Shown: piece by piece, positions 47,531 to 64,000 of the stretch
Position numbering within the stretch: the stretch's first letter is position 1
How the letters are laid out: every line of letters begins with the position of its first letter
DNA from: Candidatus Thiodiazotropha sp. 'RUGA'
GTDB lineage: Bacteria > Pseudomonadota > Gammaproteobacteria > Chromatiales > Chromatiaceae
Length of the DNA: 64,000 bases
Reading direction: 5' to 3'
Assembly (NCBI GenBank): GCA_016842065.1
Contig: JAEPDS010000001.1
Location: 1 to 64,000 of the forward strand
Notes under the pieces: model-generated
What the model was told of the DNA's origin: nothing
The model's input: only the letters and a program-made list of their open reading frames with translations
Databases searched by the model: none
Program-made: the position numbers and the translations under genes

Positions 47531-47576
47531 TGGTGGGCCATGAAGGATTCGAACCTTCGACCAATGGATTAAGAGT
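47531..47576 (-). other. 3' fragment of tRNA-Lys(CTT): attachment-site scar of a genomic island
   Basis: On the minus strand positions 47576 to 47531 read as the end of tRNA-Lys: the anticodon loop and 3' anticodon stem ACTCTTAATCCA, the variable loop TTGGTC, the T-arm GAAGG-TTCGAAT-CCTTC and the acceptor ATGGCCC followed by ACCA. The 5' half (D-arm and 5' acceptor GGGCCAT) is absent; the sequence beyond 47576 is unrelated. It is a truncated tRNA, as left when a tyrosine recombinase integrates within the anticodon loop. The tRNA 3' end points left, so the inserted element extends to the right. Confidence 0.85.
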
Positions 47577-47734: not shown

Positions 47735-49171
47735 TTAATTGATTTTATGTTGAATCGTCAACGCTTCCCAATTTGGCTGTGAGTCTAGGCTTTTATTTGG
47801 TTGTGTGTCTAGGCTTTTATCGTTCTCAAGTTCGATTCTGAACTGTTCAGTGCGTTTCCCCGGTAGTCCATTCTTACGATACCGTAATCCCCATACAACG
47901 AAAATGACACACCGTTCTAGGGCTAAAACATCCATTCTTTCTACCTCGACACGTACGTAGCTTTTACCAGTCTCAATCAACACAATATCCCCAACTTCGA
48001 TGCCAAGAACATCCTGGCACAGGAGCACAGTTTCACTCTCGAGTTCCTGCTCCCAAAATTCGAGATCAGCCTCCAACTGCCGCCAAGCCTGTCGTGCGCC
48101 CATAAACGGCCCAGACTCTCCCCGAGAAAACCACAGTCTATCTAACAGCGTGAGTCTTTCATTCGGCAAAGCCGTATCAACGTCGTGGGATGCTTCAACC
48201 AATGCCTCATAGACCACTTTTGCCTCATGGAGTGCTTGAAGACGATCTGCATAGGGCTTGATCCCTGATCGTCTAATCTTCCCTGGCAACCGTTTGTCAT
48301 TTGCGGGCATAAGGTCAATCGGGCAAACTTCCCTCAGCGGTATCCGAACCGTTTCAAACCAATCACGAGACCAGAGATCATCCACGTCTGCCCGAATCCA
48401 GACTTCATGGGATGATACACACAGCTCTGTTTTGGCTCGTGAGTATTCCCTTGGTGAAAAAACCTGCTTCACCGACCAGGCGTGGTCTAAGGCAGACATA
48501 TCGGCCACTGCATAAGTCAAACCGTTGTCACGCGCCAATCGTGAGAGGTGCGAAATACGCCCAAGAAAATCTGACGTCGCCCTGACAGAGATTGTGGGAC
48601 TATCATCACTTGAGTGACGACCATCTGTCTTGCGGCGAAATATCAGCAGTTGCTCCTTCGCATGTGGCTGCAACTTACCAACCAGGTTACTCAAACTACT
48701 AAGCCCCCCATTCATACTTGTCGCAGCTACCCTGTCAGCCAACCACTTCTCATATTGGGTCTGTAAAACAATCAGAATCTGTGCTACTAGCTCTGGGGGA
48801 ATGGAACGAATCCCATCATAGGCCAACTTGCAAACCTTGGTATTTACACCGCTGTTCGACAACTCTTCTAGTGCATAGTTGAGGAATTTAAGCTGCAACT
48901 TGGACAGCAGAACCTGGCTTTTTGACTTTACTTGTTTTCTTAGACGCTCTTCGATTTCGGCGCGGTATGCCGGTAGCGGCGGGCGTTTCGGCGTTCTACC
49001 TGATGCCACCCTTGCCCAATATCCTCTCGGTGGTTTAGGAACCTGTAGTTGTCGGCAAAGCTTGCCTAGGGCCACGTCAGAAACCCCCAACTCGCGGGCC
49101 ACCTCTGTGGTGGGTCGCTCCCATATTAGAGCAAATAATTCCTCGCGTGACAGTGACTTATTCTTCAACAT
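47735..49171 (-). CDS. HTH-containing hypothetical protein of the island
   Basis: The 478-residue protein begins with a helix-turn-helix (REELFALIWERPTTEVARELGVSDVALGKLCRQL, then PKPPRGYWARVASGRTPKRPPLP), a start frequently seen in uncharacterised proteins of mobile islands. The rest is a soluble mixed region with no motif I can name. The C-terminus holds two imperfect copies of KSLDTQPN encoded by a 24-bp tandem repeat. It is the leftmost island gene, 147 bases after mcrC in the same direction, and may have its own promoter. It could be the island's regulator. Confidence 0.7.
   Translation of the reverse strand: MLKNKSLSREELFALIWERPTTEVARELGVSDVALGKLCRQLQVPKPPRGYWARVASGRTPKRPPLPAYRAEIEERLRKQVKSKSQVLLSKLQLKFLNYALEELSNSGVNTKVCKLAYDGIRSIPPELVAQILIVLQTQYEKWLADRVAATSMNGGLSSLSNLVGKLQPHAKEQLLIFRRKTDGRHSSDDSPTISVRATSDFLGRISHLSRLARDNGLTYAVADMSALDHAWSVKQVFSPREYSRAKTELCVSSHEVWIRADVDDLWSRDWFETVRIPLREVCPIDLMPANDKRLPGKIRRSGIKPYADRLQALHEAKVVYEALVEASHDVDTALPNERLTLLDRLWFSRGESGPFMGARQAWRQLEADLEFWEQELESETVLLCQDVLGIEVGDIVLIETGKSYVRVEVERMDVLALERCVIFVVWGLRYRKNGLPGKRTEQFRIELENDKSLDTQPNKSLDSQPNWEALTIQHKIN
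47775..47822. repeat. 24-bp tandem repeat inside the HTH protein gene
   Basis: Two consecutive 24-base units (47775-47798 and 47799-47822) share TGTCTAGGCTTTTAT-type cores (first GTGAGTCTAGGCTTTTAT, second GTGTGTCTAGGCTTTTAT). They encode the two C-terminal KSLDxQPN copies and keep the reading frame. Confidence 0.75.
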
Positions 49172-49318: not shown

Positions 49319-50572
49319 TCAATGCCACTCTCCTAGAAACTGACTTGGTAGTGTGTGATTCTTTCTTGCTGTGATATCGAAAGGCACAACAATCACCATC
49401 GCTCCTGATCCTTTAAGATGCAGCTGAACCGGTATCGTCATCTTATGTTGCATGGGATAAACCATAAACAACTGTTTAACACGATACCTTGTTGCGTAAC
49501 TTTCCATCTGATATAGATCTGCCTGAATTATTCCGAGCTTTCTTTGTCCTTCATCCAGAAGTTTCCACTTAGCATCCGCAATAGCTACAACCTGATTTTT
49601 CTTGTTCAGAAAAGAAATATCTGGCTTCATCATGAAGACATTCTGATCGCCATCCATACGTCGAGCTAAAAACTTCTGTGGGCCCTGCTCTCTTACTCGC
49701 AGTCCTTTACTCCACGCGTTCTTCCTTAATTCGGCACCAATATATAATTCAAACAAATGGTTCATATCAAATAAGAGCGATACACAGGTTTCCTTTCCAG
49801 ACAGAACATCTGGATACAAGCCCATCAGAAACCACTTGCATTGTTCAAATATCGATTCATATCTGGCAGTTGAACGATCAAATCTCAGTGAATTCAGTAG
49901 ATCGATGTCTACAGCTATATCACTTATTGGGTCAAATCGCATAAGGAGTTCAGCTACATGAATACGAACACGGTTCCCTATTGCTATTTTTTGCAAGATT
50001 TTCAGTACATGCTTCAATATCTGATTGTGGACATTGTCATCGCTTAACTCATCATATTGACAAAACAGTCGTTCACGATGAGTCAGATTCTGCTTGAGCT
50101 GCTGTTCAATTCGTAACCTACCACGCAGTACGTTGAGATTCTCGTTTCGCTCAATGTAAGTTCTAATCATCCCCTGCATCATCTCGGCATGCAGCTGGTC
50201 ACAAAAATGAAGTATGAATACATCCAGAAGACTGTGTTTCTGGAGCGCAATTCCTGCTGTGCCTGCGCGACGGAGTTTCAGTCTGCGAGCCTTGGAAAGC
50301 ATGCGTACCAGCGCAGCCCGGCTGGATCCCAGATCAACCTCAAGGCCGTAAATCTTTGGAAGAATCTCTATAGATAAATTACCTAATGAGATGACACCAC
50401 AATAGTGCCCGAATTTGATTTGCTGATTCCCCCAAGACCACGCTCTCGTTGACAGCTCTTTCTCAAGCCTGGCGAGCGTGTCTGCGTGGGAATAGTCGAG
50501 CGCCTTCTGCCCTCTTCCACGAGATCGTAGAATTTGTAGAGACTCGTGCTCGATTACTGACAGCACCTCCAT
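49319..50572 (-). CDS. mcrC: McrC-type restriction endonuclease subunit
   Basis: The 417-residue protein matches McrC in length and layout. An N-terminal GHYCGVISLGNLSIEILPKI leads to NVLRGRLRIEQQLKQN, and the C-terminal PD-(D/E)xK nuclease has D318 in MMKPDISF and D333-A-K335 in IADAKWK, followed by QADLYQMESYA. In McrBC the McrB GTPase ring loads DNA and McrC cuts it. ATG 50572 lies two bases beyond the mcrB stop, so the two are translated together. The catalytic residues are intact. Confidence 0.92.
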   Translation of the reverse strand: MEVLSVIEHESLQILRSRGRGQKALDYSHADTLARLEKELSTRAWSWGNQQIKFGHYCGVISLGNLSIEILPKIYGLEVDLGSSRAALVRMLSKARRLKLRRAGTAGIALQKHSLLDVFILHFCDQLHAEMMQGMIRTYIERNENLNVLRGRLRIEQQLKQNLTHRERLFCQYDELSDDNVHNQILKHVLKILQKIAIGNRVRIHVAELLMRFDPISDIAVDIDLLNSLRFDRSTARYESIFEQCKWFLMGLYPDVLSGKETCVSLLFDMNHLFELYIGAELRKNAWSKGLRVREQGPQKFLARRMDGDQNVFMMKPDISFLNKKNQVVAIADAKWKLLDEGQRKLGIIQADLYQMESYATRYRVKQLFMVYPMQHKMTIPVQLHLKGSGAMVIVVPFDITARKNHTLPSQFLGEWH

Positions 50573-50574
50573 GA

Positions 50575-53205
50575 TCAGGCACTCTCTTCGTACACTTTCC
50601 TGACCGCATCGGGCGTGATCTCATCCGGATCCACAATCCAATATTCTGTCAGGTCTTCGAAGTCATCATGATCGAATCCTAGGACATCTTCTTCATTCAG
50701 CGTGTCATGACACACAATCTGTGGTTCCAGTTTTTCTCCCCCTGGTCCCACATCTCGAAATACCAACTGGATCCTGTGCCAGTCCTCATAGAAATATTCC
50801 TGTAGAAGAGGAATAATTTTGTTAAAAAGAACTTCCCTAAGACCAGAAAAATCACGCACGTTGATGAAATAGGCATGCCCAAGCGTCATATCTCTGTTTA
50901 ACAGGAAACGGATACGACGATTCATAGCCTCCAGTAACGCACGCAGATTGATAACACCGCCATCCCCATCTTCTATATAACCATCGCCACGTGAGCCGCT
51001 AATTACGCCAGCATCGGGCATTAATTCTTTGAATTGGAAACGACGGCGTAATGCAGTATCCAGTAGCGCTATTGAGCGGTCCGCCGTGTTCATTGTCCCG
51101 TAGACATCCAAATTTCCAGGCACACCAAATCGTGCACCTGAATAAGGAAGAGTCAATTCCATCCCCGACTTCAGGAATCCAGCATCGTTATATATCGCCC
51201 TTTTATCTTCTTCTATCAAGGTAATCAACTCGCCAAATATTTTGGCAATGTTCCCCCTGTTTATCTCATCAATAAATATCGCGTACCGCTGATCGGGGTC
51301 TGCTTTTGCTCTTTGACATATCCTTTTGAATACACCAGGCACTACCTGATACCCTATATCTCCGGTTTCCTCATCCTGAACTGGTCTAATACCCTCGACG
51401 AAATCTTCGTAGCTATAAGCTTGATGGAACGTCACGTACTCAAACCGTTGATGGGACGCCTCTTGCTTCGGGCCAGCCTTCCATTTCTTGGCTTGTTCCA
51501 CCTGCTCTGCACATTCTTCTTCCCAGTCATCGACCAGTGACCATACGCTGTTTTGCTTCTTGTCAAATACAAGCGGCGCATTACGGTTCTTATATTGAAC
51601 GGTACTGGAGTTTTCACGAGTATGTGCCTGAAGAGTTGCCCATATTGTTTGCGCGATGTTCCGGTCACGCCCCAGGGCCTTCGCCTTCATCTGCACATAC
51701 TCATGCTTTAGAATTGCGTTGACTTTTCCTTCACCGCCAAGGTCATACAATGCGCCAAAGATCACATCAAACCACCTGGCATCCAGCAACTCCTGAATCA
51801 ACCATGCATCACGGCTTAGAGATTGCTTTCTGCTTGAATACTTTTCTACCAGGCGATTAAGTTGATAGGTCTTTCCTGTTCCTGGAGGCCCATACAGAAT
51901 CTGGTTTAGGGCAACCTTGACACTTCCACTGCGCTTTTTATCATCTGGCTGCTTTGCCGCCTCAACGACCTTTTCCCAGACCTTCTCCAGAATCCCGGCC
52001 GATCGCTGCTTTATCTCTATTCCAGAAGCCTGCGGTGACCATTCCTGCTTATCGACAGTAATCCTCTCTAAATCGGCTTCCGTTATATAAGGATCATTCT
52101 GTAGTGGATCCTGAATCCGTGAGAATGCAACATCCACATACCGGTATACTTTGCCCTGCTCGGCCTTTGCTTCGTCCCAATGAGGCGCCTCATAAGGGTC
52201 GGATACCACATTACCAATAGCTATGATTCCTTTCGGAGGTTCGCCCGTCCTCACCAGAAATGCTTTGTCACCGGTACTGGCATCTTTATTGGCACATCCC
52301 CATCGATGAGTTACCGTTCTTCCTTCATGTGTAGCTTCCCGGTCATCAGCTATTGACTCCCACTCCCAATTGCTTGGATTCCAACTAAACAACCACGTCC
52401 TTACCCTGGCGTCACCCCAGAGATCACGAAGCGGTGTAACATAAAAGTCTAACTCCTTGGTGCCATACTCCTCTTCCTTTTGCTTGCGTATCTCAAGGAG
52501 GTTCCGGTCGATCTCTAATGCCGAAAGATTCCTGACCTGTGCCGCAGATTTTCCTGAGAAGGTCCGGACAATTCTTCGTCGATCTGTCCCCCCGAATATA
52601 CGCTCGAAATCGTCAGGGAATAGTAAAAACAGCAACATATGGCGCAATTGACGAGCATCGCATTCAGGCACTTGTTCAAGCCACTGGGCGAATTCCCAAC
52701 CATCGGAAAGAAACCTATTCCGTTCCTGATTCGTAAGACTCTTGAAGGCAATCATTGCACGAATAAAAAATACCAGCTCCCGCCAACGATTGGTGTTAAA
52801 ACTTGTTCCTGCGCTTCCTACGCCGCCCAGAACACCATCCCTTATCCACTCGGAATCCTCTGGAAACGCCTCCCCCGACCATTCCCAGATACTCTTGATG
52901 CCTTCGCGCTTCTTCGATTCGCCAATGTTGCTAGGGCAGAGAAACATTAGCCACAGCATCTCGGCTGCGAGTTGTTTCACCCCTGACGCAGTCGGATCCA
53001 GCTGGACCTCTAGTTTCTCGAAAAAGCTTCCCTCTCCTTCATCCGGCTGATTTACGAAGTGCTGATCTAGGGCTTCGAGATTTGGCAATGTCCATATTGA
53101 ACCTCTATCGAATATGGAACTATCCGACAGCAATCCCACTTCTTTCCAATGTTGAGCCGCGCGGAGTATTGGCTCGACTATTTTTTCACCGCAATACCGG
53201 CTCAT
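50575..53205 (-). CDS. mcrB: McrB-type AAA+ GTPase with an EVE domain
   Basis: Residues 1-260 form a helical N-terminal domain. Residues about 268-380 read as an EVE (PUA-like) domain: RTWLFSWNPSNWEW, HRWGCANKD...GDKAFLV and GIIAIGNVVSDPYE. The AAA+ motor follows with Walker A GPPGTGKT (439-446), FHQAYSYEDFVEGIRP, Walker B AIFIDEINRGNIAKIFGE and the McrB signature MNTADRS (705-711). EVE domains read modified bases, so this McrB probably targets DNA with modified cytosine or another modification. ATG 53205 has GGAGAA upstream. 876 residues. It is coupled to mcrC. Confidence 0.93.
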   Translation of the reverse strand: MSRYCGEKIVEPILRAAQHWKEVGLLSDSSIFDRGSIWTLPNLEALDQHFVNQPDEGEGSFFEKLEVQLDPTASGVKQLAAEMLWLMFLCPSNIGESKKREGIKSIWEWSGEAFPEDSEWIRDGVLGGVGSAGTSFNTNRWRELVFFIRAMIAFKSLTNQERNRFLSDGWEFAQWLEQVPECDARQLRHMLLFLLFPDDFERIFGGTDRRRIVRTFSGKSAAQVRNLSALEIDRNLLEIRKQKEEEYGTKELDFYVTPLRDLWGDARVRTWLFSWNPSNWEWESIADDREATHEGRTVTHRWGCANKDASTGDKAFLVRTGEPPKGIIAIGNVVSDPYEAPHWDEAKAEQGKVYRYVDVAFSRIQDPLQNDPYITEADLERITVDKQEWSPQASGIEIKQRSAGILEKVWEKVVEAAKQPDDKKRSGSVKVALNQILYGPPGTGKTYQLNRLVEKYSSRKQSLSRDAWLIQELLDARWFDVIFGALYDLGGEGKVNAILKHEYVQMKAKALGRDRNIAQTIWATLQAHTRENSSTVQYKNRNAPLVFDKKQNSVWSLVDDWEEECAEQVEQAKKWKAGPKQEASHQRFEYVTFHQAYSYEDFVEGIRPVQDEETGDIGYQVVPGVFKRICQRAKADPDQRYAIFIDEINRGNIAKIFGELITLIEEDKRAIYNDAGFLKSGMELTLPYSGARFGVPGNLDVYGTMNTADRSIALLDTALRRRFQFKELMPDAGVISGSRGDGYIEDGDGGVINLRALLEAMNRRIRFLLNRDMTLGHAYFINVRDFSGLREVLFNKIIPLLQEYFYEDWHRIQLVFRDVGPGGEKLEPQIVCHDTLNEEDVLGFDHDDFEDLTEYWIVDPDEITPDAVRKVYEESA

Positions 53206-53292
53206 ACAGATTCTCCATTTGTATTGGTTACCCCACCTACTCGAGGACGCCTTCGCGCAACATTTAAACCTGATACATTCAACTGCCGCATA

Positions 53293-55023
53293 CTAGACAC
53301 CTTGCTTGGCTGCATCGTAGATATTCCGGCATACAGGTGAAGAAGCGACCACATATACTACCGATTTCGCACGGGATAGCCCCACGTACAGCAACTCTTG
53401 TTCCCGTTCAAGGTCAAGGGCATCCAACCCCCACAGAAATACTATGGCTGATTCCAGCCCCTTGAACCGCTTCACAGTATCTAGCAACACTGTTCCTTCT
53501 CTACGCACACCTTCCCCGGACCATTGGTTTGGTCGTGGTAGCGGCCGCTCAAGAAGCTCATCATAGTATTCCTGTTTTCGTAACCCGTCGGCCACAAGAA
53601 CCACTATATCGCCTGCAACAACTCGCTCTCTCGCAATTAAATCGACTATCTTCGAATGCAATCTATCCGCCTGCGCATCACGGCGTGTCCCTTCAATCAC
53701 CTGGATATCTTCACCGGCTATACCTGGCGGAGAAACTGGCTCCCCTTCATAATATTGGTATGCTGCGTCATGTATCTGATCAGTGTTTCGACAATTAGTT
53801 ACCAACAAATAAGGTTCGTTCTTGATTGGAAATGAGCGTGCTCTCGAATAGACGTTTTGATTGTCATCAAAGAATATATAGAGCGGGCTTGTTTCATAAT
53901 CTGCTAGTAGCATCTCAATGGGAAACCAATACTCTTCCCTAAAATCCTGGCCCTCATCACAGACAATCGCATCATACTGATTCTGGACGACATCCAGTGA
54001 GTACGTGAGGGCCGCCGGATATTGCACATCAAACAAATCCATCCCTGGATATGTTTGTTTCGCCTCCTCGAGCACATCGCGACCACTCTGTTCTCCCGCC
54101 ATCCTTACGCGCAAATAGCAGAGCTGATGAAAGCTCATTACATCAAGATTCTCGATACCGCCGCAAACTTCTGACAGATGATCTGCCAACTGCCTGTTGT
54201 AACAGGTAAGTAGTGTGTTAAATCCCTCAGAGGCAATCCTCTTCGCCTTCTCGACCGCTAACACTGTTTTACCTGTTCCTGCACCTCCACTGATTGATAC
54301 CCGGCGCTGGGATCTAAGCACATCAAGCACGCGAAGCTGATCTTGTGTAAGCTTGAGACGCTGTTCTTCTTGATCTCTAATCCGCGCCGACACAAGCGGA
54401 GATACTTCAAACGAATGGGCGAAGGTGTTTTTAATTATCTCAATACCTTGTGGACCTATTGGGGCCGCCCTGTCATCATTGCCTGACCAATATTCCAATG
54501 CCGACTGTATCCATTCCGGAATATTTCTCAGATCGTCCTCTATACCGATGAGGCATCCCGGAAGATCTGCCCGGACAATTGGCCCGGCCTCGTTGATATC
54601 TGGAAAAAATACGGCGTGCCCACAAGCGATGCGACCAGGACCATGTCGACCCCATCGGGGGCTCTCCCTTAGCTTTGCTAGAATCGAATACTTTGCCCGC
54701 AACGCCTGCTCAATCGGGTTCTTTATTTCATGCTTGGCATTATGACGGTCAATGGAGTACCAGTGCCCATTGTCACCGTCGAAACAGACACCACCACCTT
54801 TTACCTCGACGCAAATATAGCCATGCTCAGGATGTGCAATCAGAAAATCAGCTTCTCCATCTCGGGCCTGATCATCTTCCCTGCGCAGAATCCAGTTCAC
54901 CTGAAACAGCACGAGGTACTCTCTGGGCAATCGATCTCGGAGAGCCCGATAGAGTTTGGCCTCGGCCGCTGATTCCAGTCGATCGAGTTCCTGTTCGCTG
55001 AGCTCAGGGATCATCTGGCCCAT
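53293..55023 (-). CDS. NERD-domain SF1 helicase (UvrD-like)
   Basis: A 576-residue fusion. The N-terminal NERD nuclease-related domain (DGEADFLIAHPEHGYICVEV then KGG) covers about residues 10-130. The SF1 helicase has Q-motif/Walker A GGAGTGKTVLAVEKA, Walker B VCDEGQDF, NCRNT, VKRFKGLESAIVFLWG and motif VI LLYVGLSRAKS. It probably unwinds and may nick DNA. ATG 55023, with GAGGAAG upstream, is preferred over a TTG four codons earlier; it overlaps the end of the Hsp90-like gene by about 20 bases. Its 87-base gap to mcrB is the only loose joint between this cassette and mcrBC. Confidence 0.88.
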   Translation of the reverse strand: MGQMIPELSEQELDRLESAAEAKLYRALRDRLPREYLVLFQVNWILRREDDQARDGEADFLIAHPEHGYICVEVKGGGVCFDGDNGHWYSIDRHNAKHEIKNPIEQALRAKYSILAKLRESPRWGRHGPGRIACGHAVFFPDINEAGPIVRADLPGCLIGIEDDLRNIPEWIQSALEYWSGNDDRAAPIGPQGIEIIKNTFAHSFEVSPLVSARIRDQEEQRLKLTQDQLRVLDVLRSQRRVSISGGAGTGKTVLAVEKAKRIASEGFNTLLTCYNRQLADHLSEVCGGIENLDVMSFHQLCYLRVRMAGEQSGRDVLEEAKQTYPGMDLFDVQYPAALTYSLDVVQNQYDAIVCDEGQDFREEYWFPIEMLLADYETSPLYIFFDDNQNVYSRARSFPIKNEPYLLVTNCRNTDQIHDAAYQYYEGEPVSPPGIAGEDIQVIEGTRRDAQADRLHSKIVDLIARERVVAGDIVVLVADGLRKQEYYDELLERPLPRPNQWSGEGVRREGTVLLDTVKRFKGLESAIVFLWGLDALDLEREQELLYVGLSRAKSVVYVVASSPVCRNIYDAAKQGV

Positions 55024-58000
55024 CGTCTTCCTCAATGACCGTCATTGTTTTTAGATTAAGTGCCAGATACTTTTTGCCTTTAGTCTCTCCAAAATCGACA
55101 AGCAGCGATTTAGTCATTCCGCGATTTTCTACTTTCTCTATAGTGCCTACACCGAGCAGCCCGCAATCTATCTTTTTTCCTTCCTTATAACGGAGAGTTG
55201 GATCCGCTGCTTCGTCAACAGCGACCTTCCGCCACTCACCGTCAAACATATATGAATCAACCTTCATCGCTGGACTCTGAATCGCATGAATACGAGCGCA
55301 GGTTTCATCGAGCGCGTGCTCAACAACATACAACCAGTACTTGTCACCATGATTCTGTGCTTCGCTAAATTGAAGGCGGGAGATGCTAACTCCCCTGTTC
55401 TTCCACTCCCCGCTTGTCCCCTTTACCTCAATGTACCTGTCAATCTCATCATGACCAATCTGCCGGCTGACGATGTCATAACCGGGATGTGTTTGCGCCA
55501 TCTCCTCAGGGTCTCGTCCCCTTTCTTTCTCGTAGGCACAGGCGATTGCTCTGGATGCCACCTCGATAGAGAGCTTGTATTCCCGGTCCACCTCCGAACT
55601 CTCGCGGTCCCGCTCATCTGTTTCCCGTTGCTTAACATAAGATATAAGCTTCCTATCCCAAGTCTTCTTGCTGGGATCCCTCCTCCGCGGCTTTTTCTTA
55701 GTCCCACCTACCCCTCCCTGACTGTTTCCGCTAACTGCTTGCGACCGACCCCCGGTGACGACCTGCTCACCTGCCGGATCAGCTACATCCTGATCAGTTT
55801 GGCCTTCGATAAATGACTTGGCAGCTTCCCCCTCTTTTGTACCTGTTGCCAAACTTGTAGACCGCGAAGCACCTTCTTCCGAGGGAATGCCTGTCCGGGC
55901 ATCTGCCTCGTCGCCTTCGCCTTCCCCTTCCCCAATACCACCCAACTCCGGGGAGACCAGGTCTAACTCTCCGCCCTCCTTACCTTCTGCTCCAAGAACA
56001 GGAATATTCGCTTCAGTCAGGAACTCCTCTGCATCAACGACCGACATACCTATCATCTGGAAGAAGTTCATGCTTATCTGGGCAATATGTGCCGCTTGCT
56101 CCTCAGGCATCAGACGATGGAGTATCACGGTAAAGATATACAGCCACACACGTTCTCCCACAGGCCTGGACAACACCAACTTTTCCATAGATTCATCACA
56201 GAAGGCCTTTACAGATGTCGGCTCAGAGGAAACTGGTTCATCAGCTATAACAACCGACGCCACAATCCTTACTTCGTCATGGCTCAACACAGAAATATTC
56301 TGAAATACAGAGACCAACCTTCTGCGCGTTTCGACTGGCTTGTCGTGGAGCATACGGGCAAATACACCGCTTCTCTCTAACATCTTGTCTCGTATCTGTT
56401 CTTCTACCTGCTCAACCCCATCTACGTACTCGAGATCAACGCTAGCCTTTCTCGTCAGTCGCTCAACCCCGAGTTCCGCGAAAAACGGCCACCATGCAGG
56501 ATCCGGCTTGCATAGCATAGGTGAGAGTTCATCGCCGAAGTGTCCTGCATGCCATTCACTGTCGTGAAGAAGAACTTCATCCGGGTGGCAAAGCACACCT
56601 GTGATACTTAGAACTGTCGGAGCCTGCTTAAGGCGTAAGAGGTCTTCCGTGCTGATGTCATCATCCATGCCCCATGACTGAGCAAGCGCTTCCATACAGT
56701 GCTGATAGATTGCATTGTCTTCGGGAGATATCTGGGCTTGACGAGGATAGTTTTCCTCGACAATATCAAGAACTATATCGATGTAGTCTTTCGGCTCCGG
56801 CTCCTTCTTGACACCGATCACCTCGAAAAGGTCTTTGTATTGGTCGAGTTCTCCAGGGACTGAGAATGAATACTTACCGAGGTTCTGTGGGATTAGATAT
56901 AGTTGATTCGGACGGACATATCTCTCTTGGGCGTCAAGGTATATGCATGGCTTTCCGCGCAGTCTGGATAATTCACCATCCCTCTGCCTTGCCCGCTCGT
57001 TGAGCACCTGATAAACAAGATTGCTGGCTGGCGCCTGATAATCTACACAATGCAATAGGTGATTCACAACCAGACGGGTCTCGGCCGTGGTATTGACCGA
57101 CAATGCCTTCAAGAGGCCACTATTCAACTTCTGTGTATTCTTGAAATCGAGAATATGTGCCTGTGACTGGAATGCCTGATATCTGAATGGTGCATAAACC
57201 TCTTCAGGCATATACCAGTTCCCTGTATCACCATCCACCGGCAGACAACGGACGGATACCAGTCTGTTCAACTCTGCCTCAATATCCTTATCGTTACTAT
57301 CCTCGTCATAAATATTACAGATTTCGTAGAACGCTGTTTCGCTAGCTTTCCTTGCCTTTGTATCCGGAAGATAAGACTCGGCAACTGCTAGTATTCTATC
57401 TACCAGATGGCGCGTAATTGGGGAATCCAGAAGGCCCAGATTCACAATAAATACATGGACGGATCGCTCGGATGGCAACCGTTTCTCGTCTACCCATAGT
57501 GATCTGTATTCACCAAGAAGAACAGCCAGCTCGTCAGTACGGTAATAGAGCTGATCGGCCCGCCGCCATCCACCATCGCTGGCCGGCACTAGCGGCGTTA
57601 CTTCCAGGAGTGAACGTATCTCGTCGTTGTCCAGCAGTCCGGCGTGATCCGCAAGTGCCAGAATCAGACGTCTGTAGGCATCGAGATCCTCCGGGCCGTC
57701 TTCACCAAAAAACAGAGGTACTACGGTTCGGACATACTCCTCAATTGTTTGGCGTTTAACCTGAAGTTTTCGCTCAATGAATACCTTTGAGCTTGCAGAT
57801 AGACAGGATTGATCCAGCAGTTCCGCTTGACCCGTTGGGTCTTCAAAATCACCAGGCAACAAGACATGCTCCAAAGAAGACATGCCGTTCCCGGTTCTCC
57901 AGATTGGTAGTGCTCTCAACGTGTCATACGCTTCTTCGTCATCTTCTCCAGTTTCATCAAGCCTGCCAAGCATTGAGTAGAATGAACGAAGTGTCTCCGG

Positions 58001-59785
58001 ATCATTGCCTATTACTTCTTCTAAGCATCTCTCACCATCATCCAATTGGGCCTCAAGCTCGCCCGCCCCACGCCCAATATCGAAATGATCAACGAGTCCA
58101 TAGAGTTTTGGATATGGCACCAGCTTGTCATTGACAAACTTTAGATATTGGAAAGAGCTAGCCAGGTTCTCTCCACTTATCCCTACTGGCGCTCGATAGC
58201 ATTGATCAATAGAAAAGACTCCTAACTCGGTATCAAGAATAAATGGAAGCCTCTTCAGTTGGCGTACTGATTGTTGCACAGCAGATGACGGGGATTCCGT
58301 GCCCGGTAACAAATCCTCAGCAATCGCCCAAAGTGGTTGAAAGAAAGAATCCTGGTGATCCGGCGTAGCTTTATCATCCCCTGCACTTGACGATATCAAT
58401 GATTCATCGGCAATGGCCACAAAGCGTTCTAGCGTTAGCTCCTTGACACCCAGCTGAATAAGCGCATTACGGTGTGACCTGAGCGCTTCATTGATCAACT
58501 CACCGCCGATCTGATGAAATGCCGCAAGTTCGTGCTCGGATAAGGTCTTTCTGGACAACAGCAGATCAGAGGGAGGTTTATATTCCCCCTTTTCCGAATA
58601 CCCAACCTCTGCCCCATCGGCTACGGCTGCTTTGAACGCCTCCCAGAATGATTTTAGAGGCTCTGGATATCTCGACTTTCTGTCCTGTGCGACAACTAGA
58701 GTTGCGGACAATAATTCCCATAATTGCGTGTGGCCGAGCCGGTCTCGAAGCCCTACCAGGTCCTCCGCTAGTGCGCTTGCCGCTGTACGAACCAGTAGCT
58801 CATTCCATGCCTGCTGGTGCTGATGACCTTCAAATATTATGGCCTTCCGGCTATCCTCCGGGAAAAAATCCGCGTTCAGATGGAATGGGAGACCGGTCGA
58901 CTGCCTCGTTGGTAAGAACGCATAGAGCAGCCCTTCTTCCAATGGCTCGGGATCCACTCGAATAGCTACTGAGACATCGGTCTTTCTATCCAGCGGTTCC
59001 AGCTGAGGGTATCTTTCGTAAACGGGCCTGGTTTGAGAAGCGGCATCTGAGCGGACAATGAACCAGCGTTCTACTTCTCCCTTTGGCTCAAAGGACACGA
59101 TAAGTTCTGCGTCATCCCCCCGATCCAGCTCCACCACCAACAGCACTTCACCATTCCGCCGCAGCTCCGCTTTTTCCAAATTCCGCAAGAAAAGCAAGCT
59201 CTCGTGTAATACATTCTGACAGTCTTCCACAACCTGTTGAATATGGTCCTGGGTAACGTGCGACACTCCAAGCGCCTGCCTTCCCGGTGAAGTTGGGTCA
59301 GTTGCCCAGGGGAGATAGAATGTCGTTCCATTTTCTCGCGGCTCGGGTTTTCGATAGCATTTGCCTTCTTCCGGTACAAGCGTAAGTTGAATACCCGCCG
59401 AATGAATCTCGGGATGGTCGGCGATTTGATAGGTCGATGAGAAGCCAATACCAAACCGGCCTATATTCTCGGAACGTGAAAGCTTTCCCCCACTCCCAAA
59501 ATCTGAAATCCGGTGAAAATCACAGCTGTATCCTTCTGATGTTTGGTGCGGACACGGTTTCTTACCCAACTCACCACAATAGGTAAATGTCCCGCTATTC
59601 CATACAAGCAGCCCTTCCTCCTGAATATCGAAAACGATCTGTTTTGCCTTTGCATCGTCGGCATTCTGAATAAGCTCAAGGGCCATCGTATCGAACCCCT
59701 GCAACCCCTGCAGGTGTGAACGGATGTTGCCCAATAAATTGGAGGTATAGTCGCTGCTTTCACCAAGTACAGATGCCTGCGCCAT
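55004..59785 (-). CDS. Hsp90/sacsin-type ATPase with C-terminal DUF3883
   Basis: The 1593-residue protein starts with a GHKL ATPase: LELIQNADDA (catalytic Glu and Asn), VWNSGTF, and GRFGIGFSSTYQIADHP (G2 box), as in sacsin-like proteins. A Cys/His cluster (C70, C78, H80, C89, H91) lies in the lid region and could bind zinc. The middle 1150 residues are unassigned. After a Glu/Gly/Ser-rich linker comes a DUF3883 domain (HPGYDIVSRQIGHDEIDRYIEVKGTSGEW), a restriction-endonuclease-like fold in mobile defence proteins. ATG 59785 overlaps the PLD-like stop as TGATG. It probably acts as an ATP-driven sensor or effector in defence. Confidence 0.87.
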   Translation of the reverse strand: MAQASVLGESSDYTSNLLGNIRSHLQGLQGFDTMALELIQNADDAKAKQIVFDIQEEGLLVWNSGTFTYCGELGKKPCPHQTSEGYSCDFHRISDFGSGGKLSRSENIGRFGIGFSSTYQIADHPEIHSAGIQLTLVPEEGKCYRKPEPRENGTTFYLPWATDPTSPGRQALGVSHVTQDHIQQVVEDCQNVLHESLLFLRNLEKAELRRNGEVLLVVELDRGDDAELIVSFEPKGEVERWFIVRSDAASQTRPVYERYPQLEPLDRKTDVSVAIRVDPEPLEEGLLYAFLPTRQSTGLPFHLNADFFPEDSRKAIIFEGHQHQQAWNELLVRTAASALAEDLVGLRDRLGHTQLWELLSATLVVAQDRKSRYPEPLKSFWEAFKAAVADGAEVGYSEKGEYKPPSDLLLSRKTLSEHELAAFHQIGGELINEALRSHRNALIQLGVKELTLERFVAIADESLISSSAGDDKATPDHQDSFFQPLWAIAEDLLPGTESPSSAVQQSVRQLKRLPFILDTELGVFSIDQCYRAPVGISGENLASSFQYLKFVNDKLVPYPKLYGLVDHFDIGRGAGELEAQLDDGERCLEEVIGNDPETLRSFYSMLGRLDETGEDDEEAYDTLRALPIWRTGNGMSSLEHVLLPGDFEDPTGQAELLDQSCLSASSKVFIERKLQVKRQTIEEYVRTVVPLFFGEDGPEDLDAYRRLILALADHAGLLDNDEIRSLLEVTPLVPASDGGWRRADQLYYRTDELAVLLGEYRSLWVDEKRLPSERSVHVFIVNLGLLDSPITRHLVDRILAVAESYLPDTKARKASETAFYEICNIYDEDSNDKDIEAELNRLVSVRCLPVDGDTGNWYMPEEVYAPFRYQAFQSQAHILDFKNTQKLNSGLLKALSVNTTAETRLVVNHLLHCVDYQAPASNLVYQVLNERARQRDGELSRLRGKPCIYLDAQERYVRPNQLYLIPQNLGKYSFSVPGELDQYKDLFEVIGVKKEPEPKDYIDIVLDIVEENYPRQAQISPEDNAIYQHCMEALAQSWGMDDDISTEDLLRLKQAPTVLSITGVLCHPDEVLLHDSEWHAGHFGDELSPMLCKPDPAWWPFFAELGVERLTRKASVDLEYVDGVEQVEEQIRDKMLERSGVFARMLHDKPVETRRRLVSVFQNISVLSHDEVRIVASVVIADEPVSSEPTSVKAFCDESMEKLVLSRPVGERVWLYIFTVILHRLMPEEQAAHIAQISMNFFQMIGMSVVDAEEFLTEANIPVLGAEGKEGGELDLVSPELGGIGEGEGEGDEADARTGIPSEEGASRSTSLATGTKEGEAAKSFIEGQTDQDVADPAGEQVVTGGRSQAVSGNSQGGVGGTKKKPRRRDPSKKTWDRKLISYVKQRETDERDRESSEVDREYKLSIEVASRAIACAYEKERGRDPEEMAQTHPGYDIVSRQIGHDEIDRYIEVKGTSGEWKNRGVSISRLQFSEAQNHGDKYWLYVVEHALDETCARIHAIQSPAMKVDSYMFDGEWRKVAVDEAADPTLRYKEGKKIDCGLLGVGTIEKVENRGMTKSLLVDFGETKGKKYLALNLKTMTVIEEDDGPDDP

Positions 59786-61095
59786 CAAAACAACTCTCCA
59801 GCAGTTTCTGGCGCGGCATCGTGCTCACTGAACAGTTCATGGACCCTGTTTTTCGGGATCTTAGATAGCTCTAATGCGGCTCGGAAGCCAGCGTCATGTA
59901 TTGTCTCGTAGGATACATCCTTGAACTTAAGCTTTATGACTGGTAGAGAAATATCGTCCACGTTACCGAAATGCGATTTCAGATCTTCCGTGAGCATGGT
60001 TGACAGATCTTCATCACTGATCTTGTCGGGCGTGAAAGATGATTTGAGATACCTGGCCGGGATGTTGTTTCTCACCAGTGGCAATAATACGGTTACCAGC
60101 TTAGCGATTGTCGTGTCGATAGAATCCTTGATCTTTTGCTTTAGAGCCTCATGATAATCAGCAAGCTTCATATTGAAGATTTCTATAGCTTTGTCAAAGG
60201 CCGCTCGCCGTGACCTGAATATAACGACATCGTAGTTTGGTATCTTATACAGAAAATCTTCCTCGATCTTCTTCCTGTCTCGCTGAATAGTGACCTCATC
60301 GTACTGTATTTTTACTTCTCCGCCTTCTTCCGTCTGCTTGATGTCACCCTTCTCGTCTCTCGCTGGTATTTCTACTTTGAGACTATCTGCGCTGTCGAAC
60401 ATCTTGAACGCATTACGCCAGCGATTTCGGATTTCTTCATTGTCCTGGAGCCCCATCAAATCCGCTGGAATGGGCGCAATCATTGACGACAATTTGTATT
60501 TGTTTAGCTTGAACTCAACATACTGAATTCTGGAATTGAAGACGCGCTCAATCCGCGCCACTGAATACTGCTTTGGCGGCACCTCCTCGAGATCTTTCTT
60601 CATTGCCGCTAATGACTCCGCCTTTACAACAGATCTTCCGATTTCCGCATCTTGAGGCAAGGTGCCACCCGTTGTCGCACAAGCCTTTTCTAACGCATCT
60701 GTTGCTGTGGGAATGACAATAGCATTCGGCTTGTCCTCCTGATCTGAACCCGCCTCGATCAAATGCGGCGTCGGAGAATAGACCAGCGTGGTTTCATCCG
60801 TGATAAGTACTCCGATTCTTACACCGGGCTGCTGCCGAAGTTCCAGCATGTGCTCGTCAGACAGTTTTTTGATGTGATCAAGGCCCTCCGTATCACCGTA
60901 GCCCAGGCGATATACTTCCGGGTCATTATCAACAATAATGGTCATTGACAATGACCCCAAGCTACCGAAGCGAGCACCTAATGCCAATGCAACTGCTTTG
61001 CTGATACCCGGCGCAATATATATAATCTTCGATGCTGCCTTACTGATCGCATCAGCAAGTACAACGTCATTTACCACTGTAAAAGTCTGGGTCAC
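59785..61095 (-). CDS. PLD-like fold protein with degenerate HKD motif
   Basis: The N-terminal 130 residues look like a phospholipase D fold (ADAISKAASKIIYIAPGISKAVALAL, MTIIVDNDPEVYRLGYGD, GVRIGVLITDETTLVYSPTP). In place of the HxKxxxxD motif it has R93-I-G95 ... D100: the His and Lys are gone and the Asp remains, so catalysis is unlikely. Residues 150-400 are alpha-helical, with a charged coil, and have no recognised family. GTG 61095 is the start. It lies 51 bases after the SMC-like gene and is coupled to the Hsp90-like gene by a TGATG overlap. Confidence 0.68.
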   Translation of the reverse strand: MTQTFTVVNDVVLADAISKAASKIIYIAPGISKAVALALGARFGSLGSLSMTIIVDNDPEVYRLGYGDTEGLDHIKKLSDEHMLELRQQPGVRIGVLITDETTLVYSPTPHLIEAGSDQEDKPNAIVIPTATDALEKACATTGGTLPQDAEIGRSVVKAESLAAMKKDLEEVPPKQYSVARIERVFNSRIQYVEFKLNKYKLSSMIAPIPADLMGLQDNEEIRNRWRNAFKMFDSADSLKVEIPARDEKGDIKQTEEGGEVKIQYDEVTIQRDRKKIEEDFLYKIPNYDVVIFRSRRAAFDKAIEIFNMKLADYHEALKQKIKDSIDTTIAKLVTVLLPLVRNNIPARYLKSSFTPDKISDEDLSTMLTEDLKSHFGNVDDISLPVIKLKFKDVSYETIHDAGFRAALELSKIPKNRVHELFSEHDAAPETAGELF

Positions 61096-61146
61096 CGCTT
61101 AGCCCCCATGTGTATTCTTTCAGTGATTAACATACGCAACCAAACC

Positions 61147-63096
61147 TCATAGATCACATTTCAAAAGACGTTCACTCGCGGGTGTCCCACGAAGTGTAAG
61201 ACGCAACCAAGGAGGTTTCGCCAGCTCTGGTGGCGGGCGAGTCGTAGTAGTCACCACATATTGAAAAAGCGGCTGTCCACCTACCTCTTCCAACCTTCTC
61301 GCAAGATAGAAAACCTGGTCATATAAAGGAAGCCCAAGGTCAGCTTCGCGCGGACTGTCGTGGACCAGGAAAGTTGGCACACGGGTTTTTCCCTCGATAC
61401 TGAGACAGAGCGACCCGAGGTCGAAGGCGATCACTTTTAGCGAATCGATCGCCGATGTCGACCTATTGCCCCCCATTTTCACAGTCAAATTCAAACCGTT
61501 GCCAGTAAGCGCGATACTGCCTTTCGCATCCTGGCCAACCAACGTTCGAATAATGGGGTCAAATTTCTGGCTAAGTTGTCCTAAGACACGCGCCTGTTGA
61601 TTAAGAAAAGCGCCAACATGTTCGCGTCCCTGCTCGATAGTAGCGATAAGTTCACGTAGTGAGTTGTTAGCAGCCTCCTGCTGATCCACCAGACCAGCAA
61701 GATTCTCGACATCATCGGCGAGCCGTTTTGCCGAATACCAGACTGATTCGTGTGACCTGCGCGCCGCTTCCAGTTTCTTCAGGCGCTCTTCTAAACGACT
61801 CGCATGCTGTCGTGCGATGGAAAGCTGTTGCTTGGCTTGATTTCTTTCGTTCTTCGCATTGTTAAGGCGTTCAGTTTCATCAGTCAACTCCTGACGGTTT
61901 CTATCCAGACGCCGCCGACACTCTTCTACATCCGGCAACTTGTGTGACAGGTCACATTTACTAGCCAGAACGCGATCGACAGGTACTTCGCAAATAGGAC
62001 ATGGAAAACTCTCTGCTTCCTGCAAAGCATAGGAGAGTCCAGGGTACTCTCCATTGATCTTGGCGATGATTCGCTCGCTGTTTGGGATTTCTGCTTCGAG
62101 GATTCCAATCCTACGGTCGAGTTGAACCACCTCCGCACGGGCAGTCTCGTACTCCTCTCGTGCGACTTCAGTCTCAGAAGATACTTCATCTCCGCTAATC
62201 CCTGCGGCCTTCGCGAGCCGTGCCTCCGCCGCCAAGCGTAGTGCTTCGATCTCAAATACGCCTTGGGTCAGCACATCCTCATCGGCCCCCAGTTCAGCTA
62301 ACAGCCGCGCCTTGCTCCTTTGGATTTCCCATTTCCGATGGCCGATCTCCTGCTCTATGGCGCGTTTTTCATCTTCGAGTTTAGTGATTTCCGCCCTCTT
62401 GGTATGCTCTTCCGGCGTGATTGCCTGAAGGAATGCTCGTAATGCATCTAGCTTTTCAGTCTGGTTTAATCCTCGGGCCGGTGAATCTGAATCCGAAGCG
62501 GCTGCACGCCAATCCAGGACGTGGTCGAAGCGGCATTCCTGATCTCTGGTTAACCAAGCAAGAGCAATTGGCCAACTCCTCCGCTCAAGTCGATGACCGG
62601 GAACTAGATCAGTCAATTCAGTTGTCAGGATGGTCTGTTCGACCGCATCCAAGAAAGGTTCAATTCCTGTCGATGCGGTCTCCCCCACCGCAATCTCATC
62701 CAGGTTTCCATTCTGAACCGCCACATGCCGACGCCGGTTGCCGAGAGGGCGGATAATTACCCAACAGATTTCATCGAGCATGACCTCTGCACCGACTAAA
62801 CCATTGGGAAACACCTCGCCGATTCGATCCCGTTGATCGTCGGGAGCAAAACGCTCCTCGCCCAAGCAGTATCGCAATAATCTGCAGAACAGGGTCTTAC
62901 CACCACCATGTCCAATTCCTTGGTCGTCTGGTGTCCAGATAATATTGAGGCCAGGACGGAGTTGAATGTCCCGGACTGGCTCTTCACCAGGTTCTTTCCA
63001 TATTGTGAGGCGACGCACCCACAAACGCGGACCGGACACATCCGGTGGAAGTTGGACTTCCAGTTCCTGTTGAAAGAACTCATGCTGCTGCGGCAT
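61147..63096 (-). CDS. Rad50/SMC-like ATPase with zinc hook (DUF2326-type)
   Basis: Walker A GHGGGKTLF near residue 62, a long coiled coil (about 225-340 and 395-500) and a zinc hook C366-P-I-C369 with a further C381 between the arms. The C-terminal part carries STSAIDSLKVIAFDLGSL and VPTFLVHDSPREADLG as Walker B, where the usual catalytic Glu after the Asp is Ser, as in DUF2326 ATPases. 649 residues. It probably senses or bridges DNA ends. Its ATG overlaps the end of the methylase gene by 17 bases, so they form one unit. This pairing resembles the methylase and ATPase of Hma systems. Confidence 0.82.
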   Translation of the reverse strand: MPQQHEFFQQELEVQLPPDVSGPRLWVRRLTIWKEPGEEPVRDIQLRPGLNIIWTPDDQGIGHGGGKTLFCRLLRYCLGEERFAPDDQRDRIGEVFPNGLVGAEVMLDEICWVIIRPLGNRRRHVAVQNGNLDEIAVGETASTGIEPFLDAVEQTILTTELTDLVPGHRLERRSWPIALAWLTRDQECRFDHVLDWRAAASDSDSPARGLNQTEKLDALRAFLQAITPEEHTKRAEITKLEDEKRAIEQEIGHRKWEIQRSKARLLAELGADEDVLTQGVFEIEALRLAAEARLAKAAGISGDEVSSETEVAREEYETARAEVVQLDRRIGILEAEIPNSERIIAKINGEYPGLSYALQEAESFPCPICEVPVDRVLASKCDLSHKLPDVEECRRRLDRNRQELTDETERLNNAKNERNQAKQQLSIARQHASRLEERLKKLEAARRSHESVWYSAKRLADDVENLAGLVDQQEAANNSLRELIATIEQGREHVGAFLNQQARVLGQLSQKFDPIIRTLVGQDAKGSIALTGNGLNLTVKMGGNRSTSAIDSLKVIAFDLGSLCLSIEGKTRVPTFLVHDSPREADLGLPLYDQVFYLARRLEEVGGQPLFQYVVTTTTRPPPELAKPPWLRLTLRGTPASERLLKCDL

Positions 63097-64000
63097 CTAC
63101 CCAACCCCTCAGTTCGCTCGGTAACGCCGTCAAAATTGTGTCTGTGTCATGCCTTTTCAGAACATCGGCTACCATCCTGGCTCGTCCATCTGGCCAACCT
63201 TCCGTTACAATGCCGTCTAGTCCAGTCCCCTGTGCCCATGTGCCTGCTTGAGCATCTTCGATAAGTTGACCGTTGGTGCGTAAATACCGCACCGCCGCGC
63301 CCCATGCTTGGTCAGTGCGCGCAATAAAGGAAGAAGCACCCTGCGACAATGGAGCGGCCTCGTCGCCAATTAGACGTCGCCACGTAGCCGCCTCCGCCTC
63401 GCTCAGATATGGCAGCAATAAGCGCGGTTCGAATGCCAATAATGCCGCTAGTCGAACTTGTCGTGCCGGCAGCGCTTCGGTAATCACCTTGAGAATTGCC
63501 GCAAGTTGCGCGCCTAATTCAGCCCGAGGATCCTGCATGGGCCGAGCCCAAGCATTGGCGGGCAGGGTTGAAAGATCCACAACCGCAGCCGGTCTAGCAA
63601 TCATGCGAGTTGTTGAAGGCTGTGCAATTAGCTCCCCGCTTTCCAATCGATCCCAGGCTTCTAGAACCAGACGCTTTGTGCGGTATTCTCCGAATTCGTT
63701 GACTTCCTTGTTCTTCAGCACACGGAATGTTTCTGAAGGATAGTCTTCACCCATCACGTCCGCGGGATCGAGGATATAGCGCAGTTCATCTCGGGTCAGG
63801 TCGTAGAGTTTGGCGTAGTACGCATCCAGTTCGCATTTGAGCTGGTGGCGATTATCAGGGTTAAAGGGGTAAGGATCGCCTTGGTAGCCAAGGTCCTCTG
63901 CCCATGATTTGAGATCCCAAGCAGTGTAGGTGAGTTCTAGGACCCTGGGCACTATGAATTCGAGGTCTGATTCCAGATATCTTGATGGCGGGAGATTCGT
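63080..64000 (-). CDS. C-terminal part of a COG1002-like DNA methylase, cut by the window edge
   Basis: The frame is open to base 64000 with no start inside the window; the first internal GTG at 63952 is not the start, because family-like residues (LPPSRYLESDLEFI) continue upstream of it. The 306 visible residues include VLELTYTAWDLKSWAEDLGY and YYAKLYDLTRDELRYILDP followed by ADVMGEDYPSETF and GEYRTKRLVLEAWDRL, which belong to the C-terminal region of large Eco57I/COG1002-type adenine methylases. The catalytic domain is off-window. It is the first visible gene of the minus-strand defence operon, coupled to the zinc-hook ATPase. Confidence 0.78.
   Translation of the reverse strand, partial: TNLPPSRYLESDLEFIVPRVLELTYTAWDLKSWAEDLGYQGDPYPFNPDNRHQLKCELDAYYAKLYDLTRDELRYILDPADVMGEDYPSETFRVLKNKEVNEFGEYRTKRLVLEAWDRLESGELIAQPSTTRMIARPAAVVDLSTLPANAWARPMQDPRAELGAQLAAILKVITEALPARQVRLAALLAFEPRLLLPYLSEAEAATWRRLIGDEAAPLSQGASSFIARTDQAWGAAVRYLRTNGQLIEDAQAGTWAQGTGLDGIVTEGWPDGRARMVADVLKRHDTDTILTALPSELRGWVDAAAA

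Follow-up and report, generated by a model that had tools for sequence, protein, structure and literature searches.

A tRNA-Lys island of Candidatus Thiodiazotropha carries a nine-gene array that is probably a set of four self-contained defence modules

The ARMADA Type I system has been described in a preprint (PMC12458937) as a YprA-like helicase, a BrxHII-like helicase and a PglX-like methylase, encoded in that order. In work from the same group, a DISARM-like system often accompanies one McrB branch (PMC11090510) and, therefore, an ARMADA-like core beside McrBC is already known. The combination of BREX with BrxU places a methylation-based system next to a modification-dependent type IV enzyme (PMC8565348); for all three publications, our statements refer to the part of the text available. 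Here we analyse the first 64 kilobases (kb) of the 264,224-base contig JAEPDS010000001.1 of Candidatus Thiodiazotropha sp. 'RUGA' (64,000 nucleotides (nt), hereafter the window), in which a defence gene array was read onward past base 64000. Open reading frame (ORF) calling over the window and its continuation gave nine minus-strand genes at contig positions 49319-75639, about 26.3 kb. Comparison with the described systems indicates that this array is probably made up of four self-contained defence modules (A to D), carried as cargo of a transfer RNA (tRNA)-Lys island, inherited together and each able to work alone.

The first three genes of module A resemble ARMADA Type I. They encode a YprA/DruE-like helicase of 1744 amino acids (aa) with DEAD-box and MZB (DUF1998) domains (contig 70405-75639) and an SNF2 helicase of 945 aa (contig 67571-70408), both beyond the window, and an ArmB/PglX-like methylase of 1491 aa (contig 63080-67555, or L002:1081-5556), of which 63080-64000 lie in the window. 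In agreement with the YprA family of ARMADA Type I, MZB scores 43.1 bits in the first helicase, against a cut-off of 24.2, and DruE models of PADLOC reach 328 bits. The SNF2 helicase matches the DpdE, DrmD, HmaA and BrxHII profiles at 675, 297, 208 and 204 bits, respectively (PADLOC), and the methylase matches DrmMI (242 bits, PADLOC) and has an NPPW motif at residue 762. The three families, the gene order and the carriage on an integrative element are all shared with ARMADA Type I (PMC12458937). By gene order and the three families, the 'methylase' is predicted to come third in an ARMADA Type I-like core. A preliminary description of this DNA, made from the window, missed the core because the window ended inside that gene; it had proposed looking beyond base 64000 for a helicase ahead of the methylase, and two helicase genes are indeed found there. 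The array differs from ARMADA Type I by a zinc-hook SMC-like ATPase, a 17-nt gene overlap and a methylase C-terminal domain; neither SMC nor Tiamat is named in the available main text of the preprint (PMC12458937). As a side observation, a plasmid of Acidithiobacillus caldus has an ARMADA-like operon (L115:12514-19915) with a Phd/VapC toxin-antitoxin pair annotated between its SNF2 and methylase genes.

Other assignments were considered and rejected. ARMADA Type II does not fit, the fourth gene being SMC-like and not GajB-like with RelE, and the UvrD-type gene of the array carrying NERD. DISARM class 1 was discarded on the fusion of helicase and MZB within 1744 aa, in place of split DrmA/DrmB, and on a phospholipase D (PLD)-like protein without HxK. 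As for BREX, there is no pglZ or brxC in the Pfam and PADLOC tables of the nine proteins, which for the methylase and the two upstream helicases comprise the best 25 PADLOC families. The methylase and ATPase pair had also been likened to Hma, a resemblance that did not survive: the 16 families matching the ATPase (E ≤ 0.01) include no Hma model, the methylase is DrmMI/ARMADA-like, and HmaA ranks below DpdE and DrmD for the SNF2 helicase.

The fourth gene of module A (61147-63096, minus strand) encodes an SMC/Rad50-like ATPase with a Walker A motif, a CPIC hook and HDSPR. The preliminary description had recognized it as a zinc-hook SMC-type ATPase, and its homologues bear this out: the GKT of Walker A and HDSPR are kept in 13/13, and the CPxC hook in 11/13, being missing from L134 and L135 only. 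The ATPase is matched at E ≤ 1e-50 in 3 of 398 whole genomes, own genome included, and in 10 plasmid records, of which the eight at 36% identity or more were examined. G165 and G367 have ATPase loci. It resembles LmuB of Lamassu and Rad50-like ATPases in its SMC-like ATPase domain, coiled coil and zinc hook (LmuB, 75 bits). However, the array ATPase pairs with the methylase C-terminal domain, and no PADLOC family listed for the eight scanned window proteins is LmuA.

This C-terminal domain spans about residues 1310-1491 of the methylase and lies within the in-window part of the gene (63080-64000). Methylase C-terminal sequence is found directly ahead of the SMC gene in 8/8 plasmid loci and in G409, a genome of the same class that has the same gene set (SMC 77.7% and methylase 41% identical to those of the array). 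All three ARMADA genes are matched in seven of the eight plasmid loci; the eighth (L114) shows a methylase fragment alone. The 17-nt overlap of methylase and SMC genes recurs in L109, L110, L111, L112, L113, L120 and L127 and measures 14 nt in L128, taking the annotated start in L109 (ORF calling gives 20) and the ORF-call start in L111 (the annotation starts later). Among the 40 methylase matches listed, out of 360 plasmid records, five extend to residue 1464 or beyond, all in ATPase-matching records; the other 35 end at residue 1336 or earlier and none is among the ATPase matches. In ARMADA loci without the ATPase (L115-L118), the methylase match reaches residues 1304-1312 only. A contig of the viral collection (L136:6316-11992) encodes a 1237-aa type III restriction protein (REase_III, 1090 bits, PADLOC) that ends in a domain of the same type, 28% identical and retaining W, WG, GTW and GR residues, and is followed by the ATPase. 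Judged from sequence, the methylase C-terminal domain goes with the SMC-like ATPase, which it may dock, and an ARMADA Type I variant with both SMC and this domain looks new. At genome level, the YprA protein was found at E ≤ 1e-100 in 8/274 whole genomes, counting its own. Of these, G000 and G409 have the SMC gene, which is unmatched in G591 and G617, and G627 has lost the middle of the array; the stretches of G638 and G652 are too short to judge and G594 was left out.

Module D is an EVE-McrBC pair, as had been proposed. McrC (49319-50572, minus strand) matches Pfam McrBC at 251.4 bits, as expected of the PD-(D/E)xK nuclease subunit, with a D318...DAK motif. EVE-McrB (50575-53205, minus strand) combines EVE (32 bits) and AAA_5 (55.6 bits) domains, a GPPGTGKT motif and the NxxD signature of McrB GTPases (NTAD at 706). 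The order, EVE-McrB and then McrC at 2 nt, shows no notable difference from EVE-McrBC type IV restriction. EVE-McrB is matched in 304 plasmid records. Four of these were examined; the EVE-McrBC pair is free-standing on three (L123, L125 and L126), McrB is broken on the fourth (L124), and no ARMADA or TmtA match lies within 16 to 18 kb on any of them. Within the stretches taken for nine SMC loci (eight plasmids and G409), no match was reported for McrBC, TmtA, the NERD-UvrD gene or the 436-aa gene described below. In G409, a type IV methyl-directed restriction enzyme model is matched (305 bits) 36 nt after the SMC gene, giving another instance of module A adjoining a type IV enzyme. The layout is like that of BREX with BrxU (PMC8565348), a methylation-based system adjoining a modification-dependent type IV enzyme, but the protein families differ on both sides.

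Module C comprises a sacsin/Hsp90-like ATPase with a C-terminal NOV_C domain (55004-59788, minus strand) and a NERD nuclease-UvrD helicase fusion (53293-55035, likely start about 55023, minus strand; Pfam NERD 40.1 and UvrD_C_2 34.5 bits). The preliminary description held that the middle genes match no named system. This proved wrong for the Hsp90/DUF3883 gene, which matches the TmtA ('Tiamat') model PDLC03969 of PADLOC along its full length (1693 bits, residues 12-1584), so the cassette is partly catalogued; it stood for the 436-aa and NERD-UvrD genes, without a system match beyond RTasNERD-Hel at 235 bits. The Hsp90/sacsin-type ATPase of TmtA is seen in a Pfam SACS match (70 bits) and, at E 7e-6, in matches to structures of sacsin. 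Across 64 aligned sequences, among which one contig is present twice, the Q, N, A and second D of the QNADD box are kept in all 59 covering sequences and the first D in 58, and NOV_C residues D1438, E1454 and K1456 are present in 62/62 of those covering them, a pattern that we take to be of the PD-(D/E)xK nuclease type.

The NERD-UvrD gene is a frequent partner of TmtA. Out of 184 TmtA relatives returned by a genome-contig scan, the best 80 were retained; these make 78 loci (L023-L100), taken with 10 kb or less of flank on either side, many contigs ending sooner. With three viral-collection loci, one plasmid locus and one genome locus, 83 rows were counted. NERD-UvrD directly follows TmtA in 41/83 rows (40/82 distinct) when no score band is applied, and in 39/50 well-matched rows (38/49 after removal of the duplicate contig), the band, a minimum of 450 bits and a span above 1200 positions, having been chosen after data inspection. 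Among the 11 unpaired rows in the band (L027, L043, L045, L047, L051, L056, L060, L061, L069, L074 and L083), NERD remnants stand at the right place in L027, L045 and L060. More distant TmtA proteins are mostly without NERD. In four loci (L056, L069, L081 and L098), a related ORF of about 950 aa, UvrD-like by eye, lies directly before TmtA instead of NERD-UvrD after it; a helicase partner may therefore be general. Across the 78 loci, the SMC gene is matched in none, the 436-aa gene in one (L039) and McrBC in one (L025, on the other strand). At E ≤ 1e-100, the TmtA model is found in 2/274 whole genomes, own genome included. Tiamat is reportedly a one-gene system. The array protein is like it in matching the TmtA model full length, but its TmtA clade differs in forming a conserved pair with the NERD-UvrD helicase. 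A narrow literature search found no publication joining Tiamat and Mokosh with NERD, Tiamat with a helicase and DUF3883, or sacsin with NERD. The predicted two-gene TmtA-NERD/UvrD module is a new part of the array. On a Microvirga plasmid (L018/L047), TmtA without NERD is found beside an opposite-strand set of UvrD helicase, DEAD helicase, methylase and DEAD helicase, resembling ARMADA Type II.

The nearest relative of module C (TmtA 89% and NERD-UvrD 92% identical to those of the array) is in a Thiotrichaceae metagenome-assembled genome (L037:103-22596), where mad6-, mad7- and mad8-like genes, TmtA, NERD-UvrD and ZacA-ZacB-ZacC run in one direction. This is another head-to-tail array of defence modules. 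Since TmtA-NERD/UvrD occurs with varied neighbour systems, it appears as a module of its own, joined to different systems. The same pair among unrelated defence genes, with neighbours that vary, would also be expected if the array were an ordinary defence island without functional logic, in which known systems merely lie side by side in the same orientation. We regard this as rather unlikely, because the 436-aa and TmtA genes are coupled at a module border, the stop codon of one and the ATG of the other sharing TGATG (1-nt overlap), and ARMADA-like genes recur beside modification-dependent enzymes, both in G409 and, with McrBC, in the available text of PMC11090510.

Module B consists of that 436-aa protein (59785-61095, minus strand), which matches no Pfam, NCBIfam or PADLOC model. 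Six full-length family members align over their length, and in 6/6 the HxK motif is changed to RxG or RxA, with both H and K replaced, as expected from the degenerate PLD of the preliminary description. An AlphaFold2 model from a two-row alignment is poor (mean predicted local distance difference test score, pLDDT, 42.7). Of 330 Foldseek matches to it, most of the 50 listed are PLD-like (best E 3.7e-3, none at or below 0.001), presumably PLD-fold proteins that include the non-catalytic TrmBL2 and FAM83; a PLD-like fold is thus hinted at by a poor model. The protein is probably a non-catalytic accessory, a binding or regulatory subunit. It was found in 5/398 whole genomes and, by profile, in 2/274 (own genome included), with a weak match in G212; there was none in the genome-contig scan, none in viral-contig scans with two members as queries, and none in the phage collection or in a sequence search of the PDB. 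On sequence grounds, the pseudo-PLD protein looks like a new, unnamed family found with type I restriction-modification (RM), BREX and other systems.

Its neighbours bear on whether it is free-standing. It might instead be part of module C, or of methylase modules, which we consider possible but doubtful. In favour of this, in a BREX-1 operon carried by an Acinetobacter towneri plasmid a homologue is placed between pglX and pglZ (L022:13986-15242), another follows an apparent type I RM cluster in G321, and a partial, broken copy stands among type I RM pieces in G019 (RM genes read by eye in both). The gene adjoins TmtA-NERD in the array and follows TmtA-NERD in L039, so module B may belong to C. 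Against this, it is present in only that one of the 78 TmtA loci and is unmatched in the eight plasmid and one genome ARMADA-SMC loci examined. Further homologues occur in G224, clustered with a DrmD-like helicase, and, on a Caballeronia plasmid, two genes ahead of an McrC remnant.

The preliminary description had gone further and proposed a single integrated system. In such a system, the methylase would mark self DNA, TmtA would be the trigger and the NERD helicase and McrBC would act as effectors. The layout speaks in its favour. All seven minus-strand ORFs on which it was based exist as described, with the same overlaps (17, 1 and about 20 nt) and gaps (51, 87 and 2 nt), and the coordinates confirm a contiguous, tightly spaced unit. 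With the continuation, the nine genes have four overlaps, between the 1744-aa and 945-aa helicase genes (4 nt), methylase and SMC genes (17 nt), 436-aa gene and TmtA (1 nt) and TmtA and NERD (about 20 nt), and four gaps, from SNF2 to methylase (15 nt), SMC to 436-aa gene (51 nt), NERD to McrB (87 nt) and McrB to McrC (2 nt). For all but one of the nine proteins there are domain or profile matches, and that one has full-length homologues elsewhere; chance ORFs are therefore no concern. Promoter-like sites are no commoner than in shuffles (8 against 18.2) and terminator-like sites number 15, against 12.9; the scan is uninformative. A single system nevertheless seems very improbable, because its parts occur without one another: the TmtA-NERD pair of the 38/49 distinct well-matched loci is nearly always without other array genes, SMC loci are without modules B, C and D, EVE-McrBC stands alone on the plasmids examined, and the 89% TmtA relative lies between MADS-like and Zac genes.

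A second copy of the array, in G627, cuts both ways. This genome, of the same class but a different family, was compared over 100 kb and 54 kb, and DNA is shared in two stretches alone, 49366-55369 (80% identity) and 73604-75644 (79%). Both ends of the array are thus conserved together, and the array has therefore, on at least one occasion, been inherited as a single unit; this is a point for a single system, as are the low ratios of nonsynonymous to synonymous substitution (dN/dS) between the two copies, 0.03-0.09 (NERD-UvrD 0.086, McrB 0.031, with synonymous divergence near saturation, and McrC 0.086, over the first 300 codons). The same order in G627 also argues against an ordinary island. 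In place of the array middle there is an IS3-type transposase ORF (by eye), and the YprA and TmtA ends are truncated, but the NERD-UvrD, McrB and McrC frames are open, which is hard to reconcile with one system, though the loss may be recent. Co-inheritance of the array counts for the preliminary description, and parts outliving one another count against a single machine.

The reading as four modules that are inherited together also has points that weigh against it. No terminator-like site was detected by the scan in the 51-nt and 87-nt gaps, with no sign of separate transcripts, and one co-inherited unit would fit both the TGATG coupling of the 436-aa gene and TmtA and what G627 shares, two array ends in the same order and none of the flanks. 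In L039, modules B and C again meet. YprA helicases are found in 2/78 TmtA loci (L047 and L063, on the opposite strand) and SNF2 helicases in 4/78 (L061, L073, L078 and L100). A type IV enzyme after ARMADA-SMC is not universal: on five annotated plasmids, the gene after SMC encodes an HNH endonuclease (three), a DUF262 protein (one) or a transposase (one). The YprA helicase is assigned to the putative ARMADA-like set by profiles and gene order, and in a test for a Vsr-type nuclease its tail gave only a sub-threshold DUF559 match (17.2 bits, cut-off 20.6).

The array is the predicted cargo of an island of 34.7 kb with a tRNA-Lys repeat at its borders. The tRNA-Lys(CTT) gene lies at contig 82206-82281 (L131:1206-1281), beside a 360-aa tyrosine integrase (contig 81055-82137), and two tyrosine recombinases are encoded at contig 78025-80825. 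By local alignment, a 46-nt direct repeat of the 3' part of the tRNA gene (44/46; copy at contig 82206-82251) marks the far end of the island at 47531-47576. Adjoining this repeat, and outside the array count, is a 478-aa ORF (47735-49171, minus strand) whose N-terminus weakly resembles RWP-RK, at a score below the Pfam cut-off.

From gene order, domains, motifs, the occurrence of the modules apart and the island ends, we infer the biochemistry, functional autonomy and division of labour of a layered defence. The methylase of module A would mark self DNA and its helicases would act on unmarked foreign DNA, which the SMC-like ATPase, docked via the methylase C-terminus, would sense or hold. The pseudo-PLD protein of module B would be an accessory, probably binding or regulatory, without catalysis. 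In module C, an ATPase switch of the Hsp90 kind, which has a nuclease-like domain of its own, would work with the helicase-nuclease. EVE-McrBC of module D would cut modified-base phage DNA escaping module A, a logic shared with BREX-BrxU (PMC8565348, available text). More tentatively, and with less confidence than in the four modules themselves, the ATPase and its docking domain may be a plug-in sensor, the domain being fused onto whichever restriction protein is served, and TmtA-NERD/UvrD a widespread two-gene system. If so, ARMADA Type I methylases and a type III restriction protein would be coupled to the same DNA-structure sensor.

Two of the four modules occur in forms beyond the descriptions in the catalogues searched. 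Catalogues of defence genes may misscore two units, by counting TmtA as complete on its own and by treating ARMADA Type I as a system of three genes. In the methylase C-terminal domain and SMC-like ATPase there may lie an explanation of how foreign DNA structure is sensed by methylation-based systems. The array is also a further instance in which a type IV enzyme, expected to close the loophole left to modified phages, travels with a methylation-based system.

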